DNA of 64,000 nt from Salinirubrum litoreum (GTDB lineage Archaea > Halobacteriota > Halobacteria > Halobacteriales > Haloferacaceae): the NCBI RefSeq assembly GCF_020567425.1, contig NZ_JAJCVJ010000001.1:62001-126000 (forward strand), in the 5' to 3' direction. This document shows, piece by piece, positions 5,659-13,141 of this stretch (positions are counted from its first letter, which is position 1; every line of letters begins with the position of its first letter). A program made the translations under genes and the position numbers. A model generated the notes under the pieces. The model was given only the letters and a program-made list of their open reading frames with translations, did not search any database and was not told the origin of the DNA.

Positions 5659-7401
5659 TCAGAAGACCCCCGGGAACAGCACGTAGCTGAACAGCAACGC
5701 AAGCAGGCCCGTCATCGTCCCGTAGTACGCGAGCGGGATCAGTTCGAGGCGGATGACCCGTCCCTCCTCGCCGACGAGGCCGACGACTGCGAGCGCAGCC
5801 ACGACGTTGTGGACGGCGATGAGGTTCCCGATAGCCCCGCCGACGGCCTGCGCACCGAGCATCAGCGTCCGGGAGGTGCCGATGTTCTCCGCGACGCCGT
5901 ACTGGAACGTCCCGAACAGGATGTCCGAGACGGTGTTCGACCCCGCGAGGAACGCACCGAAGGCGCCGACGAAGGCCGCCAGGAACGGGTACGCCCCGCC
6001 GGCGGCCCCTGCCATCCCGTCCGAGAGCACGATGAGCATACTGTCGGTCTCGGTCGCCGCACCCGACTGGAGCATGATCTGGACCGTCGCCACCGCGAAC
6101 AGCAGGGCGATCACGGCCGGCGCGACCTTCTCGACCGTCTCGCTCCACGAGTCGACGATCTCCCGTCTGTCCATGCCGTGGAGCGGGATGGTCGCCAGGT
6201 GGACGGCGACGAACACCGCACCCGGCAGGTAGAGAATCTCGAACGACCCGCCGAGGCCGGTGCCGAGGATGTTCCCCCACGACAGCGTGAAGATGTCCGC
6301 ACGCAGGAACGCCGTCACCGGATCGGCGACGCGGGTGACGACCAGCAGGAGCGCGACGAGGCCGTAGGGGGCCCACGCCCGCAGGAGCGACATCTGCTGG
6401 ACCTGCCCGCCGTCGGCCGCGACGGCACCGCTCCGGGAGGACGACTCGCCGGGCTGGATGTCACCGACCCAGTGGTCGGGCCACTCCGCCTGCGGGCCGA
6501 AGTCCCACTCCTCGTCGGGGTGGAGGTAGCCGGCCTTCAGCACGCCGACCGTGGCGAACAGCCCGACCATCGAACCGATGAGGCCGGGGAACTCCGGCCC
6601 GAGGAAGTACGCGGTCAGGAAGTACGGGATCGAGAAGGACGCCCAGGCGAACAGCGTGAGCGGCACGACCTCCAGTGCGGGCTTGATGGACCGCTCCTCC
6701 CCGAAGAAGCGCGTCATCATGGCGACGCCGATGAACGGCAGCGCGATGCCGACGATCACGTGGTAGGAGGCCGCCCAGACGGCGATGTCGGCGACCCACT
6801 GGGCGACCGCGGCGTCGGTCCCGCCGGCCGCGGCGTACGCGGGCTGGTTGACGACGTCGCCCGCGATCTCCTGGACGTTCTCGAAGATGTCGATCATCCC
6901 GATGATGAGCGGCGTCCCGACGGCCCCGAAGGTGATGGCCATCAGGTTGCCCGTCAGTGCTACCACGACGGCCGCCATCGGCGGGAAGCCGAGGCCGACG
7001 AGCAGCGGACCGACGATGGCGGCCGGCGTGCCGAAGCCGGCGGCCGACTCGATGAACGAGCCCATCAGGAACACGAGCAGGACGACCTGCACGCGGCGGT
7101 CCTCGCTGACGGACGCGAACCCTTGGTTGATGACGTCGAACGCACCGGTCTGTTTCAGCGTGTACAGCAGCAGGATCGCTCCGAAGACGATGTAGAGGAT
7201 GTTCGTCGCGGTGATGAACCCCGTGATCGACGCGGCCGCGATCCACCGGAGGCTCATCCCCCACCCGACGAGGCCGGCCAGGACGGCGACGACGAACGCC
7301 ACCGGCATCGCCCGCGTCGCGGGCCAGTACCGCCCGACCATCAGGTAGGCGATGGTCAAGAGCGGCAGGAGTGCGACGAGGACGCTCGTCGCCTCAACCA
7401 T
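5659..7401 (-). CDS. lctP: L-lactate permease (LctP family)
   Basis: A 580-residue, very hydrophobic protein with about 13-14 transmembrane helices. It shows LctP-family stretches such as MGSFIESAAGFGTPAAI, LTGNLMAITFGAVGTPLI and FAVATVQIMLQSG. The family imports lactate or glycolate with protons. It lies directly upstream of the dehydrogenase gene and divergent from a winged-helix regulator. Unusually for this window, the start has a GGAGG Shine-Dalgarno (plus-strand 7411-7415, nine bases before the ATG), and the candidate TATA box is about 100 bases upstream, so the mRNA should have a true leader. Confidence 0.93.
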   Translation of the reverse strand: MVEATSVLVALLPLLTIAYLMVGRYWPATRAMPVAFVVAVLAGLVGWGMSLRWIAAASITGFITATNILYIVFGAILLLYTLKQTGAFDVINQGFASVSEDRRVQVVLLVFLMGSFIESAAGFGTPAAIVGPLLVGLGFPPMAAVVVALTGNLMAITFGAVGTPLIIGMIDIFENVQEIAGDVVNQPAYAAAGGTDAAVAQWVADIAVWAASYHVIVGIALPFIGVAMMTRFFGEERSIKPALEVVPLTLFAWASFSIPYFLTAYFLGPEFPGLIGSMVGLFATVGVLKAGYLHPDEEWDFGPQAEWPDHWVGDIQPGESSSRSGAVAADGGQVQQMSLLRAWAPYGLVALLLVVTRVADPVTAFLRADIFTLSWGNILGTGLGGSFEILYLPGAVFVAVHLATIPLHGMDRREIVDSWSETVEKVAPAVIALLFAVATVQIMLQSGAATETDSMLIVLSDGMAGAAGGAYPFLAAFVGAFGAFLAGSNTVSDILFGTFQYGVAENIGTSRTLMLGAQAVGGAIGNLIAVHNVVAALAVVGLVGEEGRVIRLELIPLAYYGTMTGLLALLFSYVLFPGVF

Positions 7402-7586: not shown

Positions 7587-7689
7587 TTACTGGAAGATTC
7601 CGGGCGCTGAGTGCCGTGGAGCCCGTACAGAGTTAACTCGGAGGCGTAGAAATTTCGAGCAGTGTGCGGTCCTCGTCGCACGTTCTCGC

Positions 7690-7758
7690 CTCTACACACG
7701 TGGAAACCGGCTCTACACACGAGTACACAGGCATTGTCCACGTGTGCAAAGGCTTTTG
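7690..7758. promoter_or_regulatory. Probable operator and promoter of the lactate-locus regulator
   Basis: Two signals overlap. CTCTACACACG occurs at 7690-7700 and 7711-7721, exactly 21 bases apart, two helical turns. CACACGTGGA (7695-7704) and TCCACGTGTG (7737-7746) form a perfect ten-base inverted repeat. The right arm abuts a TATA-like GGCTTTTG (7751-7758), about 27 bases before the regulator ATG at 7783. A dimeric regulator bound here would meet the transcription machinery; autoregulation by the adjacent winged-helix protein is the simplest reading, an inference. Confidence 0.5.
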
Positions 7759-7782
7759 CCCCGCAGGCGCGACGCTCGCGAC

Positions 7783-8358
7783 ATGAGCGACGGTGGCGAG
7801 CGGACACGGAACGACCGCGGGCAGTACGCCGACCGCATCCCGCCCGAGGCCGTCTTGGAGGTGTTCGAGGCACGCGACGACTGGGGGCGTCCGCTCACCG
7901 CGAGCGACGTCTTGGAGGAACTCGACTGCTCCCGCCGGACCGCCCACAACAAACTGAACGAACTCGTGGACCGTGGCGACCTGCGGACGCGGAAGGTCGG
8001 CGCGCGAAGCCGCGTCTGGTGGCGACAGATCGACCCTGCCGACGTGCGGACAGAGGCGGCGACAGACGAGGAGGAGCGACCCCCGGAGGTGGCCGCAGCG
8101 ATCGGCGAGGCCGACCTCCCCGGGAGCGGCCCGCGACTCGACGCCCGGCGCGAGGCGCTCTCGGCCGCCTACGAGTATCTCACCGACCACCCGGAGGCGA
8201 AGAAGGCCGACTTCCTGCGGGACGTCTACGCCGAGCATCCGGCCGGGTACGAGTCGGCCGAGGCGTGGTGGAACGCCATCCAGCCTGCGCTGAAGGAACT
8301 GCCGGGCGTCGACCCGCCGGACGAACGCGGTCACCTCTGGCACTTCCTCGGCGGGTAG
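7783..8358 (+). CDS. Winged-helix transcriptional regulator, probable lactate-locus regulator
   Basis: A 191-residue soluble protein. Residues about 18-75 form a winged helix: IPPEAVLEVFEARDDWGRP, then LTASDVLEELDCSRRTAHN with the recognition helix, then LVDRGDLRTRKVGARSRVW as wing. The C-terminal part (about 105-191) is conserved-looking but I do not recognise it; it may sense a ligand. I start at MSDGG because the ATG at 7783 sits about 27 bases after a TATA-like box; the frame is open 13 codons further, into that box. Its place between lctP and the lut genes, and the repeats in its own promoter, suggest it controls the lactate island and itself. Confidence 0.8.
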   Translation: MSDGGERTRNDRGQYADRIPPEAVLEVFEARDDWGRPLTASDVLEELDCSRRTAHNKLNELVDRGDLRTRKVGARSRVWWRQIDPADVRTEAATDEEERPPEVAAAIGEADLPGSGPRLDARREALSAAYEYLTDHPEAKKADFLRDVYAEHPAGYESAEAWWNAIQPALKELPGVDPPDERGHLWHFLGG

Positions 8359-8367
8359 ACCGTGTGG

Positions 8368-8373
8368 ATTTAT
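8368..8373 (+). promoter_or_regulatory. TATA-like element for the Nramp-like carrier transcript
   Basis: ATTTAT at 8368-8373 lies just after the regulator stop and would place a start near 8396-8400, a few bases before a 17-codon upstream ORF and about 55 bases before the carrier ATG. The carrier may therefore have its own promoter in addition to read-through from the regulator. Confidence 0.35.
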
Positions 8374-8403
8374 GCCCGACTACTCTCCACCTTCGACCGA
8401 TCC

Positions 8404-8457
8404 ATGTGGTATCACCCGACAGCGACCCGACGTGCGGGACGGGTGGCCGGGAGATGA
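8404..8457 (+). CDS. Possible 17-codon upstream ORF coupled to the carrier gene
   Basis: An ATG at 8404 opens a 17-residue frame beginning MWYHPTAT and rich in Arg. Its TGA overlaps the carrier ATG as ATGA (8454-8457), the same geometry as real coupled genes in this window. It starts within a few bases of the predicted transcript start, so it could be translated leaderlessly and deliver ribosomes to the carrier start. Chance occurrence cannot be excluded. Confidence 0.3.
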   Translation: MWYHPTATRRAGRVAGR

Positions 8458-10292
8458 CCGACGACCCGGACGGAGCCCCCGGCGACGCGCTCGAGGAGGC
8501 ACCTGACGACGCCTCAGACGAGGCTCCCGGCGTCGACCCGTCGTCGGCCGCCGACCGGACCGAGGCGGCGCCCACCGGCGGGGACGACGTCTACGCGTCC
8601 GACGTCGAGGGGCGGCAGTATCGCGGCACCTGGTATCTGCCGCTCGACTACGAGTCACTCGACGAGGCGCCGGAATCGGACGAGTACCCCGACCGGGGTG
8701 ACGGGGGTGCGTTCCGCCTCGCGGACCTGCCGCGCGTGCCGAAAGTGAGCCACGTCGTCGGCCCCTCCGCCATCATGCTCGGCGCGTCGCTCGGGAGCGG
8801 CGAGACGCTCTTCTGGCCCGCGCTCACCGCGCAGTACGGCTGGGGCGTCTACTGGGCGTTCCTCGTCGGCGTCCTCACGCAGTTCGTCGTCAACACGGAA
8901 CTCCAGCGGTGGACGCTCGCCACCGGCGAGAGCGTCTTCCGCGCGTTCGCGCGCCTCCACGACGGGTGGCCGTGGCTCTTCCTCGTCGGCGGTCTCCTGA
9001 GCCTCGGCTGGCCGGGGTGGGCCGCCGGGGCCGCGCAGGTGGCGACGACCGTCCTCGGTCTCCAGGGTCCGGTGGCGGTCGCCGGCGTCGCGGTCGCGCC
9101 GTGGAAACTGCTCGCGGTGGCGCTGATGGTCGTCGTCTGGCTCTCGTATCAGGTCTCCTCGGTGATGTACAACGTCGTCGAGGCGTTCCAGATCGGCCTG
9201 CTGTTCGTCGCGGTGCTCGGGGCGCTGGCGCTGGCGTTCGTCACCGGGTCGGTGACCGAGTTGGCGAACCTCGACGCCGTCGTCTCCGAGTTCGGCCGCC
9301 TCCCGCCGGGTATCGACATCGCGCTGTTCCTCGGCGGCCTCGCGTTCGCGGGCGCGGGCGGCTACCTCAACCTCTCCCAGTCGCTGTGGATGCGCGAGAA
9401 GGGCTACGGGATGGGCAACTACCAGGGGCGGGTCCGGAACCCGCTCCGCGGCGACGAGCCCGAACCCATCCAGCGCGACGGCTTCACGTTCCGGCCGACG
9501 GAGACGAACCTCGAGCGGTGGCGCGGCTGGTGGCGGGTCGTCCAGCTCGAACACCTGCTCACGTTCGTCGTGGGCCTGTTAGTCGGCGCGACCCTGCTGA
9601 TGACCGTCGCGGCGAGGTACACGTCCGGGTCGCAGACCGACGCCATCCGGATGTGGCTGTTCGACGTGGCCCCGCAACTCGGCGCGGTCGGCGGGGCGCT
9701 TGTGGTGCTCGTGCTCTTCGTGGCGCTGTTCACTACCGAGTACGCCATCGTCGAGTCGTTCGTCCGCAACAGCGCCGACGCCGTCTTCGAGGCGTACGGC
9801 CGCGAGGCGGGCTGGGACCTCTCGACGGTGTTCTGGCGGCTCCTGACGGTGTTCTGTCTGTGGGGCATCGTCATCATCCTCGGGTTCACCGCCCCCTTCG
9901 AGGGACAGGGTCCCTTCTTCTTCCTCGTCGTCGGCGCGGCGCTGTCGGGGCTCATCATGTGGCCCTACACGGCGCTGACGCTGGTGATGAACACCAGCCG
10001 CCTCCCGGAACACCTCCAGCCGGGGTGGCCGCGCGTCGTCGCGATGTGGTGGGCGAGCGGCTTCTACGGCTACTTCAGCGTCCTGCTCGTCGGCCGGACG
10101 CTGGCCGACCTGGGCGTCGCGGGCGCGCTGACGAGCGCTACAGTCCTCGGGAGCGGCCCCGTGGGCTACCTCCTGTGGGCGGCGTTCGTCGTCGTCCAAG
10201 CCTACGCCGTCGCCCGGTCGGTCGGCGCGAAGCGGGCGGCGGCCGACACCGTCCCGACGGCCGCGGCGAGTCGCGGCCCGTTCGACGACTGA
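8454..10292 (+). CDS. Nramp-related membrane transporter lacking canonical metal-binding motifs
   Basis: A 612-residue protein: an acidic, disordered N terminus (1-95) followed by about eleven transmembrane helices. The layout matches the Nramp/APC fold: GPSAIMLGASLGSGETL (103-119) corresponds to TM1 and LAFAGAGGYLNLSQSLW (296-312) to TM6. True Nramp proteins carry DPGN in TM1 and MPH in TM6 as metal ligands. Here these are replaced by SLGSGE and AGGYL, so divalent-metal transport is doubtful and the substrate is unknown. The gene lies between the lactate regulator and the lut genes, which suggests a role in hydroxyacid metabolism or in iron supply for the Fe-S enzymes. The ATG is chosen at an ATGA overlap with a 17-codon ORF. 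Confidence 0.8.
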   Translation: MTDDPDGAPGDALEEAPDDASDEAPGVDPSSAADRTEAAPTGGDDVYASDVEGRQYRGTWYLPLDYESLDEAPESDEYPDRGDGGAFRLADLPRVPKVSHVVGPSAIMLGASLGSGETLFWPALTAQYGWGVYWAFLVGVLTQFVVNTELQRWTLATGESVFRAFARLHDGWPWLFLVGGLLSLGWPGWAAGAAQVATTVLGLQGPVAVAGVAVAPWKLLAVALMVVVWLSYQVSSVMYNVVEAFQIGLLFVAVLGALALAFVTGSVTELANLDAVVSEFGRLPPGIDIALFLGGLAFAGAGGYLNLSQSLWMREKGYGMGNYQGRVRNPLRGDEPEPIQRDGFTFRPTETNLERWRGWWRVVQLEHLLTFVVGLLVGATLLMTVAARYTSGSQTDAIRMWLFDVAPQLGAVGGALVVLVLFVALFTTEYAIVESFVRNSADAVFEAYGREAGWDLSTVFWRLLTVFCLWGIVIILGFTAPFEGQGPFFFLVVGAALSGLIMWPYTALTLVMNTSRLPEHLQPGWPRVVAMWWASGFYGYFSVLLVGRTLADLGVAGALTSATVLGSGPVGYLLWAAFVVVQAYAVARSVGAKRAAADTVPTAAASRGPFDD

Positions 10293-10335: not shown

Positions 10336-10349
10336 CATCATTAATGATG
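10336..10349. promoter_or_regulatory. Perfect 14-base palindrome over the lutC TATA box
   Basis: CATCATTAATGATG is fully self-complementary. Its centre TTAATGA sits 25-31 bases before the lutC ATG at 10368, where the TATA box of a leaderless transcript is expected. A protein bound here would exclude TBP, so it is a likely repressor site. It does not resemble the CACGTG elements by lctP, implying a different regulator. Confidence 0.55.
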
Positions 10350-10367
10350 CTTTCGCTAGGGACGAGT

Positions 10368-10895
10368 ATGACCAGTGGCACGGTTGCGACCTTCGAGGAG
10401 TCGCTCGAACGACTGGAGGTGGGCTGGACACACACCGACGCGGCGGGTCTCGCCGGGACGCTCCGGACGGTCTGTGACGATCCGACCGTCGGCACACCGC
10501 TCCCCTGGGCCGACGTGACGCTCCCCGACTGGGTCGAGGACGACCCGACCGCCGACGACGTCCGGGCGGCCGCGACGGGCGTCACGGCCGCCGGCATCGG
10601 CATCGCGGACTACGGCAGCGTCGTCCTCCCGTCGACCGACGACGGCAGCGAACCCGTCTCGCTCTACCCCGAGACGCACGTGCCGGTCCTCCGCCGGTCG
10701 GACCTCGTCGAGGGGATGCCGGAGGCGTTCTCGTGGCTGGCCGAGAACGTCTCTGGCGAGGGCGGGTCGGCCATCGTCGCCACCGGGCCGAGCGCGACCG
10801 CCGACATGGGCGAACTCGTGAAGGGTGCCCACGGACCCAAGGCGGTCCACGTCGTCGTCCTCGACGACGCCGACGAGACGGAGGATCCCCGATGA
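10368..10895 (+). CDS. lutC: LUD-domain protein LutC (L-lactate oxidation)
   Basis: A 175-residue LUD-domain protein (LutC/YkgG family). It ends with the family pattern GGSAIVATGPSATADM and VHVVVL, typical of the LUD core, and has GIADYGSVVLPS in the centre. LutC is one of three parts of the iron-sulfur L-lactate oxidase LutABC described in Bacillus. I start at MTSGT (10368) rather than eight codons upstream because 10368 is correctly spaced from the TATA box within the palindrome, and the earlier ATG lies inside it. The stop overlaps the next start by four bases. Confidence 0.88.
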   Translation: MTSGTVATFEESLERLEVGWTHTDAAGLAGTLRTVCDDPTVGTPLPWADVTLPDWVEDDPTADDVRAAATGVTAAGIGIADYGSVVLPSTDDGSEPVSLYPETHVPVLRRSDLVEGMPEAFSWLAENVSGEGGSAIVATGPSATADMGELVKGAHGPKAVHVVVLDDADETEDPR

Positions 10896-13141
10896 GCACG
10901 TCCCGCGAGGCGAAGGCCGAGCGAATCCGCCACCTGCTGGAGACCGAGGGCGACGCCGTCGGCCAGAACACGCGCGGCTTCAACACCGGTCGCTACGAGT
11001 CAGTCGCCGACCTGGAGGACTACGAGGGACTGAAAGACGAGGCGCGGGCGATCAAGGAGGACGCCATCGACCGCCTGCCGGAACTGATCGACGACCTCAC
11101 CGAGGCTGTCGAGGCGAACGGCGGCACCGTCTACCTCGCCAGCGACGCGGCGGACGCGAACCGCTACGTCCGGGAGGTCTGCGAGTCGAAGGACGCCGAC
11201 CGCGTGGTGAAGTCGAAGTCGATGACCTCGGAGGAACTGGAGGTCAACGACGAACTCCAGTCTGCAGGGATGGACGTGGTCGAGACCGACCTCGGCGAGT
11301 GGGTACTCCAGTTGGCCGACGAGGCCCCCTCCCACATCGTCGCGCCCGCCATCCACAAGTCGCGTGAGGGGATCGCCGAGTTGTTCCGGGAGACGTTCGA
11401 CCCCGAGGACCCGCCGGAGACCGCCGAGGAACTCACGATGTTCGCCCGCGAGCGACTGGGCGAGTTGATCGCCGACGCCGACGTGGGGATGACCGGGGCG
11501 AACTTCCTCACGGCCGACACCGGGACGATGGCGCTGGTGACGAGCGAGGGGAACGCTCGCAAGTCGGCGCTGGTACCGGACACCCACGTCGCGGTGGCCG
11601 GCGTCGAGAAGGTGATCCCCTCGGTCGAGGACCTCCAGCCGTTCGTGGAACTCATCGGTCGCTCCGGCACCGGTCAGGACATCACCTCCTACGTCTCGCT
11701 GTTGACGCCTCCCGTTAACTCCCCGACCGTCGACTTCGGCGACGACACCCCACTCGCAGACGCCGGCAGCGACGACCGGGAGTTCCACCTCGTCCTCGTG
11801 GACAACGGCCGGATGACGATGCGCGAGGACGACCAGTTGAAAGAGACGCTGTACTGCATCCGGTGTTCGGCGTGTGCGAACTCCTGTGGCAACTTCCAGA
11901 GCGTCGGCGGCCACGCCTTCGGCGGGGAGACGTACTCCGGCGGCATCGCCACCGGGTGGGAGGCCGGTATCGAGGGCGAGGCGGTCGCGGCGGAGTTCAA
12001 CGACCTCTGTACCGGCTGTTCCCGCTGTGTCGACGCCTGTCCGGTGAAGATCGACATCCCGTGGATCAACACGGTCGTCCGCGACCGGATCAACCGGGGC
12101 GAGAGCGGCGAGTTCGACTGGCTGGTCGAGGGACTCACCCCGGACGCGGAACCGGGTGGCGTGGACCTCCAGAAGCGGTTCTTCGGGAACTTCGCGACCC
12201 TCGCGAAACTCGGCAGTGCCACCGCCCCCCTCTCGAACCGGCTCGCCGACCTCGGGCCGGTTCGTTCCCTCTTGGACCGCACGCTCGGCATCGACGAGCG
12301 CCGCGACCTCCCCGAGTTCCAGCGCGAGACGCTGGTCGACTGGTTCCGCGCCCGTGGGGGGTCCCACGTCCCGCGCCACGAGGCCGACCGCGAGGCACTC
12401 CTCTACCCCGACACGTACACGAACCACATCGACACCAGTCGCGGGAAGGCGGCGGTCCGGACGCTCGAAGCACTCGGCGTCCACGTCACGGTGCCGTCGG
12501 TCCCGGCGAGCGGCCGCGCGCCACTCTCACAGGGGATGGTCGCGACCGCCGAGGAACGGGCCCACGAGGTGTTCTCGGCGCTCGCGGAACCGCTCGACGA
12601 GGGGCGGGACGTGGTCGTGGTCGAACCGTCGGCGCTGGCGATGTTCCACCGGGAGTACGAACAGTTCCTCGCGCCGGCCAGTTTCGAGCGCCTGCGCGAC
12701 AACTCCTACGAGGTGCTGGAGTACGTCTTCGGCCTGCTGTCGAACGGGGCGGAGGTCGACCAGCTGGCGGGCCCCTCGACCGATCGGACGAGTGCGGTCG
12801 CCGACGGCGGCGCGAGCACCGACCGTCTCGCGTACCACGCCCACTGCCAGCAGCGTACGCTCGGGCTCGCCGAACACACCGTCGCGGTGCTGGAGGCGGT
12901 CGGCTACGACGTGCGCACCTCCGAGACCGAGTGCTGCGGGATGGCCGGCAGCTTCGGCTACAAGTCGGAGTACTACGACCTTTCGATGGACGTGGGCGAA
13001 CCGCTCCGCGAACAGTTCGGCGACGAGGACGGGCGCGACCGGCGGGTCGTCGCGTCCGGCACCTCCTGTCTCGAACAACTCGACGCGCTCCTCTCGCGGG
13101 ACGCGACCCACCCGGTAGAACTGCTCGTGCCGGACGGCTGA
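10892..13141 (+). CDS. LutB-LutA fusion: LUD / 4Fe-4S / CCG-domain L-lactate dehydrogenase subunit
   Basis: 749 residues joining what Bacillus encodes as two proteins. A LUD domain (about 60-300) is followed by two Cys clusters, CIRCSACANSC (322-332) and CTGCSRCVDACP (373-384), as in LutB. The C-terminal half (about 440-749) is a GlpC/LutA-like region with HAHCQQ and CCGMAGSFGYKSEYY. With LutC it should oxidise L-lactate to pyruvate with electrons leaving through the Fe-S clusters. The ATG overlaps the lutC stop (ATGA) and has GGAGG seven bases upstream. The C-terminal half resembles that of the dehydrogenase at 2446-5535, including YTN, GKAAVR and DVVVVEPS motifs. Confidence 0.88.
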   Translation: MSTSREAKAERIRHLLETEGDAVGQNTRGFNTGRYESVADLEDYEGLKDEARAIKEDAIDRLPELIDDLTEAVEANGGTVYLASDAADANRYVREVCESKDADRVVKSKSMTSEELEVNDELQSAGMDVVETDLGEWVLQLADEAPSHIVAPAIHKSREGIAELFRETFDPEDPPETAEELTMFARERLGELIADADVGMTGANFLTADTGTMALVTSEGNARKSALVPDTHVAVAGVEKVIPSVEDLQPFVELIGRSGTGQDITSYVSLLTPPVNSPTVDFGDDTPLADAGSDDREFHLVLVDNGRMTMREDDQLKETLYCIRCSACANSCGNFQSVGGHAFGGETYSGGIATGWEAGIEGEAVAAEFNDLCTGCSRCVDACPVKIDIPWINTVVRDRINRGESGEFDWLVEGLTPDAEPGGVDLQKRFFGNFATLAKLGSATAPLSNRLADLGPVRSLLDRTLGIDERRDLPEFQRETLVDWFRARGGSHVPRHEADREALLYPDTYTNHIDTSRGKAAVRTLEALGVHVTVPSVPASGRAPLSQGMVATAEERAHEVFSALAEPLDEGRDVVVVEPSALAMFHREYEQFLAPASFERLRDNSYEVLEYVFGLLSNGAEVDQLAGPSTDRTSAVADGGASTDRLAYHAHCQQRTLGLAEHTVAVLEAVGYDVRTSETECCGMAGSFGYKSEYYDLSMDVGEPLREQFGDEDGRDRRVVASGTSCLEQLDALLSRDATHPVELLVPDG

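Follow-up and report, generated by a model that had tools for sequence, protein, structure and literature searches.

What does a carrier of the Nramp type transport when it lacks the metal-binding residues of this family and is encoded in the middle of a lactate locus? This question is raised by the open reading frame (ORF) at positions 8454–10292 (+) of a 64,000-nucleotide stretch from the haloarchaeon Salinirubrum litoreum (NCBI RefSeq assembly GCF_020567425.1, contig NZ_JAJCVJ010000001.1, positions 62,001 to 126,000), in the following called the window; the protein encoded by this ORF is referred to as NRL. A preliminary description, made from the sequence alone, had suggested a new substrate for NRL, perhaps a hydroxyacid. 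Here, a comparison across genomes supports this suggestion well: as a secondary carrier, NRL probably transports small carboxylates, with 2-hydroxymonocarboxylates such as lactate, glycolate or glycerate as the most likely substrates. This is favoured because lactate genes lie near NRL in 65 of 69 haloarchaeal loci, because a lactate permease occupies its place in three genomes and because lut, oxalate- and glycerate-type links recur in its relatives.

An Nramp scaffold without the metal ligands

NRL is a carrier of the Nramp superfamily, and the Nramp-like layout noted in the preliminary description was borne out at the level of family models, structure profiles and fold. The frame is open, and the NCBIfam model NF037982 (Nramp_1) matches NRL with 247 bits at a cut-off of 50 (E 3e-73); by this score NRL belongs to the Nramp-related proteins, whereby the same model covers a canonical Nramp too. 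A profile of NRL and its relatives matched EleNRMT (7qia), an Nramp-related Mg2+ transporter, among the solved structures (E 5.8e-9), and three other rows of this search (E 0.026–0.19), all proteasome RPN1, were taken as chance. With a profile of 10 proteins of a neighbouring Nramp-related group, 16 solved chains were matched, all of them Nramp, DMT, NRAT or NRMT (best 1.5e-18). These intermediates bridge NRL to the true Nramps. Pfam Nramp (PF01566) matched neither the NRL protein at E up to 1 nor anything else in the S. litoreum genome at E <= 0.001, and a phmmer search with NRL alone against solved structures returned one row only (E 1.4), taken as chance. A scan of viral contigs with the NRL family profile gave 354 pattern hits with no relative among them. 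For a longer ORF in the same frame (7662–10292) there is no independent support, and the alignments of homologues begin at about residue 6 of NRL.

According to Ray et al. (2026; PMC12873925; for this and the other papers cited below, excerpts are the source), Nramp-related proteins are a paraphyletic and diverse group without the DPGN and MPH motifs, described there as "entirely uncharacterized" except for the NRMT-like group and one containing MntG. The RefSeq label of NRL homologues is "Nramp family divalent metal transporter". With NF037982, a canonical Nramp scores 292 bits; the GSGE clade of NRL is covered by the same model, and divalent metal transporter is its name for all of these proteins.

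Canonical Nramps (SLC11 clades A–C, with DraNramp, ScaDMT and EcoDMT) share the fold and the layout of transmembrane helices 1 and 6 (TM1, TM6) with NRL. In contrast, their DPGN motif in TM1, their MPH motif (A/CxxM) in TM6 and their match to PF01566 are all missing in NRL, the two motifs having been reported absent already in the preliminary description. In an alignment with the canonical archaeal Nramp L119, which has both motifs, DPGN is replaced by GSGE, i.e., D to G and N to E. All 28 haloarchaeal rows share the residues G114-S115-G116-E117, and Glu117 is invariant in all 38 aligned proteins. The TM6 break of NRL, AGAGGY, contains neither Met nor His, whereby its register relative to MPH is uncertain due to a gapped alignment. 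In the excerpt of PMC8806188, the TM1 Asp is universally conserved in SLC11 proteins, NRMT included. EleNRMT, the nearest solved structure by profile, has the same fold as NRL and keeps this Asp; NRMTs have a DxxG-TxxA/T site (PMC8806188), whereas NRL has GxxE without Asp.

Structure prediction and fold comparison, as proposed in the preliminary description, also lead to the Nramps. An AlphaFold model of NRL was built with 15 sequences, which are 71–76% identical to the query, and its residue 1 is residue 44 of the protein. It is of low confidence, with a mean predicted local distance difference test (pLDDT) of 59.7 and a predicted template-modelling score (pTM) of 0.61. With this low-confidence model, the Foldseek ranks 1–13 were Nramp, MntH, NRMT and NRAMP1 proteins, including DraNramp and EleNRMT, and rank 17 was SMCT1 (7sl9), a LeuT-fold monocarboxylate carrier which transports lactate. 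VIA gave a Z of 15.3 to 6d91 and up to 14.6 to amino-acid carriers of the APC family.

Two of the APC amino-acid carriers offer a comparison for the substrate site. Here, the LeuT/APC fold is the same as in NRL, and the Ser/Ala-Gly of the unwound TM1 binds the substrate carboxylate. In AdiC, Ser26 and the amide of Gly27 have this role (PMC5803215); in BasC, it falls to two backbone amides beside Gly19, those of Ala20 and Gly21 (PMC6472337). The Gly114-Ser115-Gly116 of NRL lies at the corresponding unwound segment, replacing Asp-Pro-Gly, and thus by analogy resembles in kind the AdiC and BasC segments. AdiC and BasC differ from NRL in that their substrates are amino acids, and no sequence-level match between them and NRL was found. 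The VIA alignment of the NRL model with BasC starts at model residue 55 and chain residue 3; a gap-free count from there would set S115 against Ala20 and G116 against Gly21, which is a hint from the model and no superposition, the counts for AdiC and DraNramp being off by 1–2 residues.

The neighbourhood of NRL in haloarchaea

NRL was found in 50 of 148 Haloferacaceae genomes (in one as a fragment) and in 39 of 242 sampled genomes of the class Halobacteria. Loci were sampled at 40 places from the list of the 50 matching Haloferacaceae genomes, at 15 from the class survey and at 14 of named genomes, together with plasmid loci. After removal of four duplicates (L053, L054, L056, L078), and with the repeats L001–L004 and the bacterial loci L074–L076 not entered, 69 distinct haloarchaeal loci resulted. 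At least one of four lactate-locus families was present within the fetched flanks of about 8–10 kb in 65 of these: a flavin adenine dinucleotide (FAD)/iron-sulfur (Fe-S) oxidase in 60, the lactate permease LctP in 45, LutC in 33 and LutAB in 33. A helix-turn-helix (HTH) regulator lay at most 2 kb from NRL in 52 of the 69. The preliminary description would have been contradicted by homologues that never lie near lactate genes, and the survey found the reverse. With the same queries and scoring (tblastn, E <= 1e-8), only one of 20 control loci, taken from other Nramp-related subgroups in related genomes, was near a lactate-locus family; as no protein with DPGN/MPH is present in the control loci, the comparison is with other Nramp-related proteins and does not extend to canonical Nramps. 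In the positive one (L104:5375-9653), which comes from another haloarchaeal family, an Nramp-related protein of a different group, with GGSHI in TM1, adjoins lutC-lutAB.

The genes around NRL occur in at least six orders. The window type, LctP-regulator-NRL-LutC-LutAB, is also present in Haloferax, Halogranum, Halegenticoccus and Halobellus loci, and in Haloarcula the pair regulator-NRL faces oxidase-LctP. In other loci, regulator-NRL faces LutAB-LutC-LctP or lies beyond the oxidase, or LctP-regulator-NRL stands alone, and a group of 15 loci has oxidase-NRL without regulator or LctP. This variety suggests that the link between NRL and the lactate genes has been kept or rebuilt through rearrangement. 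Furthermore, 19 of the 69 loci contain the oxidase and no LctP nearby, so that NRL can be the only carrier there.

Judged by gene order, NRL would correspond to HVO_1694 and the regulator to HVO_1695 of Haloferax volcanii; the oxidase is probably HVO_1697. HVO_1695 is listed as a putative iron-sulfur protein, about twofold reduced, in a Haloferax iron-starvation proteome (excerpt of PMC11349517), a label that we could not reconcile with the regulator; this entry was not used.

The regulator and the exchange of NRL for a lactate permease

A close copy of the regulator (E < 1e-45) is present in 44 of the 148 Haloferacaceae genomes, and 41 of these 44 also hold NRL, one of them as a fragment. The three others (G001, G008, G028) have a second lactate permease between the regulator and lutC-lutAB, on the strand opposite to the usual one of NRL and in addition to the divergent permease, which is present as well. 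At two of the three loci (L131 and L132) Pfam assigned both permeases to Lactate_perm, and those of L133 were called by 54% and 47% identity to the LctP of the window. The order in L131 is that of the window: oxidase, LctP, regulator, the slot, lutC and lutAB. LctP (PF02652) belongs to a different protein family than NRL (NF037982), and the shared slot predicts the same kind of substrate. An exchange of this kind can take place between carriers for one class of substrate; it would not be expected between a metal importer and a lactate permease.

In one genome (G066; L134:7029-8334) the regulator and lutC-lutAB are kept and NRL exists only as a fragment (query residues 44–108), which is likely a recent loss. 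Nine of the 148 genomes hold NRL without the regulator, and the oxidase is nearby in eight of them (exception L036); thus, the link between NRL and the oxidase is independent of the regulator. Regulator paralogues adjoin genes of a branched-chain-amino-acid-type ATP-binding cassette (ABC) transporter in L135:1749-9157, L019, L060, L079 and L080; in L135 (G124), which also has an acetamidase-like gene, no NRL was found.

Relatives outside the haloarchaea and other Nramp-related groups

In a tree of 37 proteins, some with long branches flagged by the tool, all 13 sampled haloarchaeal NRLs fall into one clade (99/99). Four relatives from other archaea and four from bacteria join it (100/99), and the whole is separate from other Nramp-related groups and the canonical Nramp. 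The genes beside several of these relatives again point to small organic acids. A Rubrobacter plasmid relative is divergent from lutABC, with genes for a lactate-racemase-domain protein, a four-carbon acid sugar kinase and PdxA also present. In Nonomuraea gerenzanensis (NZ_LT559118.1; L076:2889-9530), the relative directly follows genes for a formyl-coenzyme A (CoA) transferase (676 bits, cut-off 504), a thiamine pyrophosphate enzyme resembling oxalyl-CoA decarboxylase/acetolactate synthase, and a CoA ligase, which makes this relative a candidate oxalate carrier. An Aureimonas relative lies near isocitrate lyase. In two archaeal genomes the relative directly follows a glycerate-2-kinase-like gene, in one of them also near a 2-hydroxyacid dehydrogenase, and in a third one copy follows TctC/TctA and the other is without evident partner. 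One plasmid of Rubrobacter indicoceani (NZ_CP031116.1; L075:2641-9464) carries two Nramp-related genes, one by a UxaA-family hydrolase and a GntR regulator and the other by lutABC.

Among distant Nramp-related plasmid proteins, sugar-acid genes are adjacent in Rubrobacter, Streptomyces and Halocatena, and other contexts are a CoA-transferase/thiolase operon (Mesobacillus), a siderophore cluster (Roseomonas) and an SLC13 permease (Skermanella); nothing was evident in the context of the remaining ones. G349, considered as a further relative, was rejected as a canonical Nramp with DPGN, MPH and a PF01566 match of 412 bits.

Two other haloarchaeal groups were compared; for their neighbour counts, as for that of NRL given below, ORFs were predicted with a simple script based on G+C periodicity instead of a gene finder. 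The group with FIGPGT in TM1 (nine loci: L099–L101, L103, L107, L112–L115) adjoins hydantoinase/oxoprolinase genes: of the 41 neighbour proteins (41 of 41 called ORFs), 8 have domain B and 7 have domain A. Its members are candidate carriers of 5-oxoproline or hydantoin-type compounds, as judged from these neighbours. The GGSHI group (eight loci; 40 of 52 called ORFs) has mostly housekeeping neighbours among the families listed, and LUD proteins in L104. These differences suggest that organic-acid links are specific to some Nramp-related groups.

The FIGPGT context is in line with a published precedent. PxpT of Corynebacterium glutamicum and YcsG of Bacillus subtilis are Nramp-family proteins required for the use of 5-oxoproline (excerpt of PMC13274462, citing Niehaus et al. 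2017 for YcsG). Similar to NRL, they are encoded together with enzymes for a small organic acid, which supports a carboxylate as substrate of NRL. They differ in that their operon is pxpABC (5-oxoprolinase), absent around NRL, whose neighbours are lactate genes for hydroxyacid oxidation; the likeness was drawn from published descriptions. An organic acid as substrate of an Nramp-type protein is therefore an idea with a precedent in the literature. For a hydroxyacid-linked clade encoded in a lactate locus, no publication came up: among titles and abstract starts of the open-licence literature, none was recognized in which transport of lactate, glycolate, glycerate or oxalate is linked to a protein of the Nramp type.

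The lactate locus of the window

In the window, NRL is encoded between the HTH gene and the LUD-domain gene, with lctP and the oxidase gene divergent (Table 1). This is the position given in the preliminary description; its name for the HTH protein, lactate regulator, needs correction, as this regulator follows NRL no less closely than the lactate genes. For the oxidase, the nearest NCBIfam models, both below cut-off, are YdiJ D-2-hydroxyglutarate dehydrogenase and GlcD, and its domain PF02913 is scarce, with 2 copies in the 4.06-Mb genome. The perfect 14-bp palindrome CATCATTAATGATG at 10336–10349, which overlaps the lutC start, was considered as an operator; it occurs in 2 of 130 loci only (L002 and L003, the same place) and was not used.

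Table 1. Features of NRL and of the surrounding lactate locus in the window.
Feature	Position	Strand	Remarks
FAD/Fe-S 2-hydroxyacid dehydrogenase (oxidase), 1029 aa	2446..5535	-	PF01565, PF02913, Fer4, CCG
L-lactate permease LctP	5659..7401	-	PF02652, 331 bits
HTH regulator, 204 aa	7744..8358	+	weak Pfam HTH-family matches, all below cut-off
NRL, Nramp-related carrier, 612 aa	8454..10292	+	low-confidence N-terminus of about 90 residues, then LeuT/APC-fold core
TM1 segment GPSAIMLGASLGSGE, residues 103-117	8760..8804	+	GSGE at canonical DPGN position
TM6 segment GGLAFAGAGGYLNL, residues 294-307	9333..9374	+	no Met/His where canonical Nramps have MPH; register uncertain
LutC-like LUD-domain protein	10344..10895	+	Pfam
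LutB/LutA fusion, L-lactate oxidation	10886..13141	+	LUD, Fer4 and CCG

Proposed function and rival explanations

The missing metal ligands and the likeness of the TM1 GSG to the carboxylate-binding segment of amino-acid carriers support a carboxylate as substrate of NRL. Mechanistically, NRL would work by alternating access on the Nramp/LeuT scaffold. The substrate carboxylate would be held by the unwound G114-S115-G116, as in AdiC and BasC, at the site where canonical Nramps place the metal-binding Asp. This site may be completed by the invariant Glu117 together with the glycine-rich break of TM6 (GAGGY), or both may provide the coupling to Na+ or H+; as a guess, Glu117 could bind Na+/H+ or the substrate hydroxyl. 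In the window, NRL would act beside LctP, supplying or exchanging substrates for LutABC and the FAD/Fe-S oxidases, and would be controlled by its own adjacent regulator.

Several observations weigh against a hydroxyacid carrier. The 69 loci are phylogenetically related, hence 65 of 69 is not a number of independent events, and four loci (L036, L060, L080 and L019, the second copy of S. litoreum itself) have none of the four lactate-locus families. A branched-chain-amino-acid-type ABC transporter is encoded near NRL in L019, L060 and L080, and also in L079, which has the oxidase, so that the substrates of NRL paralogues may differ. The oxidase is present in 241 of the 242 Halobacteria genomes in comparison to 39 for NRL, and therefore NRL is accessory; for the same reason a presence/absence test of NRL against the nearly universal oxidase was uninformative. 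As the window contains LctP, plain lactate uptake would not need NRL, unless the two carriers differ in substrate, stereoisomer or coupling. Outside the haloarchaea, the glycerate-kinase and 2-hydroxyacid dehydrogenase matches are below curated cut-offs, the second Nonomuraea copy (L098) has WYL regulators nearby and, in the five neighbours scanned, no recognizable acid gene, and none was found among the scanned neighbours of the archaeal relative L092. Finally, the structural model is weak, and YcsG (= MntG), a distant Nramp-related protein, has been reported to raise cellular Mn (excerpt of PMC10448178), a reminder that metal transport is possible even in such proteins.

The last point leads to the iron supply for Fe-S enzymes, which the preliminary description had named as alternative. 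NRL would then import Fe2+ or Mn2+ for the Fe-S clusters of LutAB and of the FAD/Fe-S oxidase, in agreement with its superfamily, with the RefSeq label of its homologues, with Fe-S enzymes as most of its haloarchaeal neighbours and with a genome in which Pfam detects no Nramp; besides the YcsG report, the siderophore cluster next to the Roseomonas protein (L082), a member of another subgroup, also fits. We nevertheless regard metal import as unlikely, since the binding Asp that is universal in SLC11 (PMC8806188) is Gly in NRL and TM6 offers no soft ligand, and since a lactate permease replaces NRL in three genomes. As a general function, iron supply is disfavoured because no Fe-S enzymes are evident in several contexts, namely those with the glycerate-kinase-like gene, with formyl-CoA transferase and with TctA/TctC. 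In addition, no metal-regulator family is among the 25 commonest of 85 Pfam families in the 121 neighbour proteins counted at 20 NRL loci (121 of 163 called ORFs, those left out being mostly long lactate genes).

Equally improbable appears the carriage of another organic solute (an amino acid, an amide or a 5-oxoproline-like compound), with NRL present in the lactate locus only by recruitment of the regulator. The ABC-transporter neighbours of the four loci named above, the regulator paralogue of G124, which adjoins an ABC set of this type and an acetamidase-like protein in the absence of NRL, and the hydantoinase/oxoprolinase genes of the FIGPGT group would fit this. However, the oxidase stays near NRL in eight of nine genomes without the regulator, and lut, oxalate- and glycerate-type links recur outside the haloarchaea. 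Export or exchange of acids without import, e.g., lactate/pyruvate exchange or overflow export, would fit the presence of the importer LctP in the locus of the window, and LeuT-fold carriers include exchangers such as BasC (PMC6472337). The 19 loci with oxidase and NRL and no LctP nearby fit import better, and this last explanation seems very unlikely.

Implications for the Nramp family

Carriage of small carboxylates may extend beyond NRL. Tentatively, and with clearly less confidence than for NRL itself, the whole GSGE-containing clade of haloarchaea, other archaea, Actinomycetota and Alphaproteobacteria could consist of carboxylate carriers with the TM1 GSG as carboxylate site. Since Nramp-related proteins branch below the canonical Nramps (excerpt of PMC12873925), the ancestral Nramp substrate could in this case have been an organic acid, with metal binding (GSG to DPG) arising later.

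Genome annotation calls such proteins divalent metal transporters; if they are organic-acid carriers, models of metal homeostasis and of carbon use are wrong at the same place. If the proposal is true, some of the Nramp-related proteins, a largely uncharacterized set, would gain a testable substrate class, and how metal transport arose in the Nramp family could be addressed directly by experiment. For a genetic comparison, the exchange of NRL for LctP in relatives of Haloferax is ready to use.

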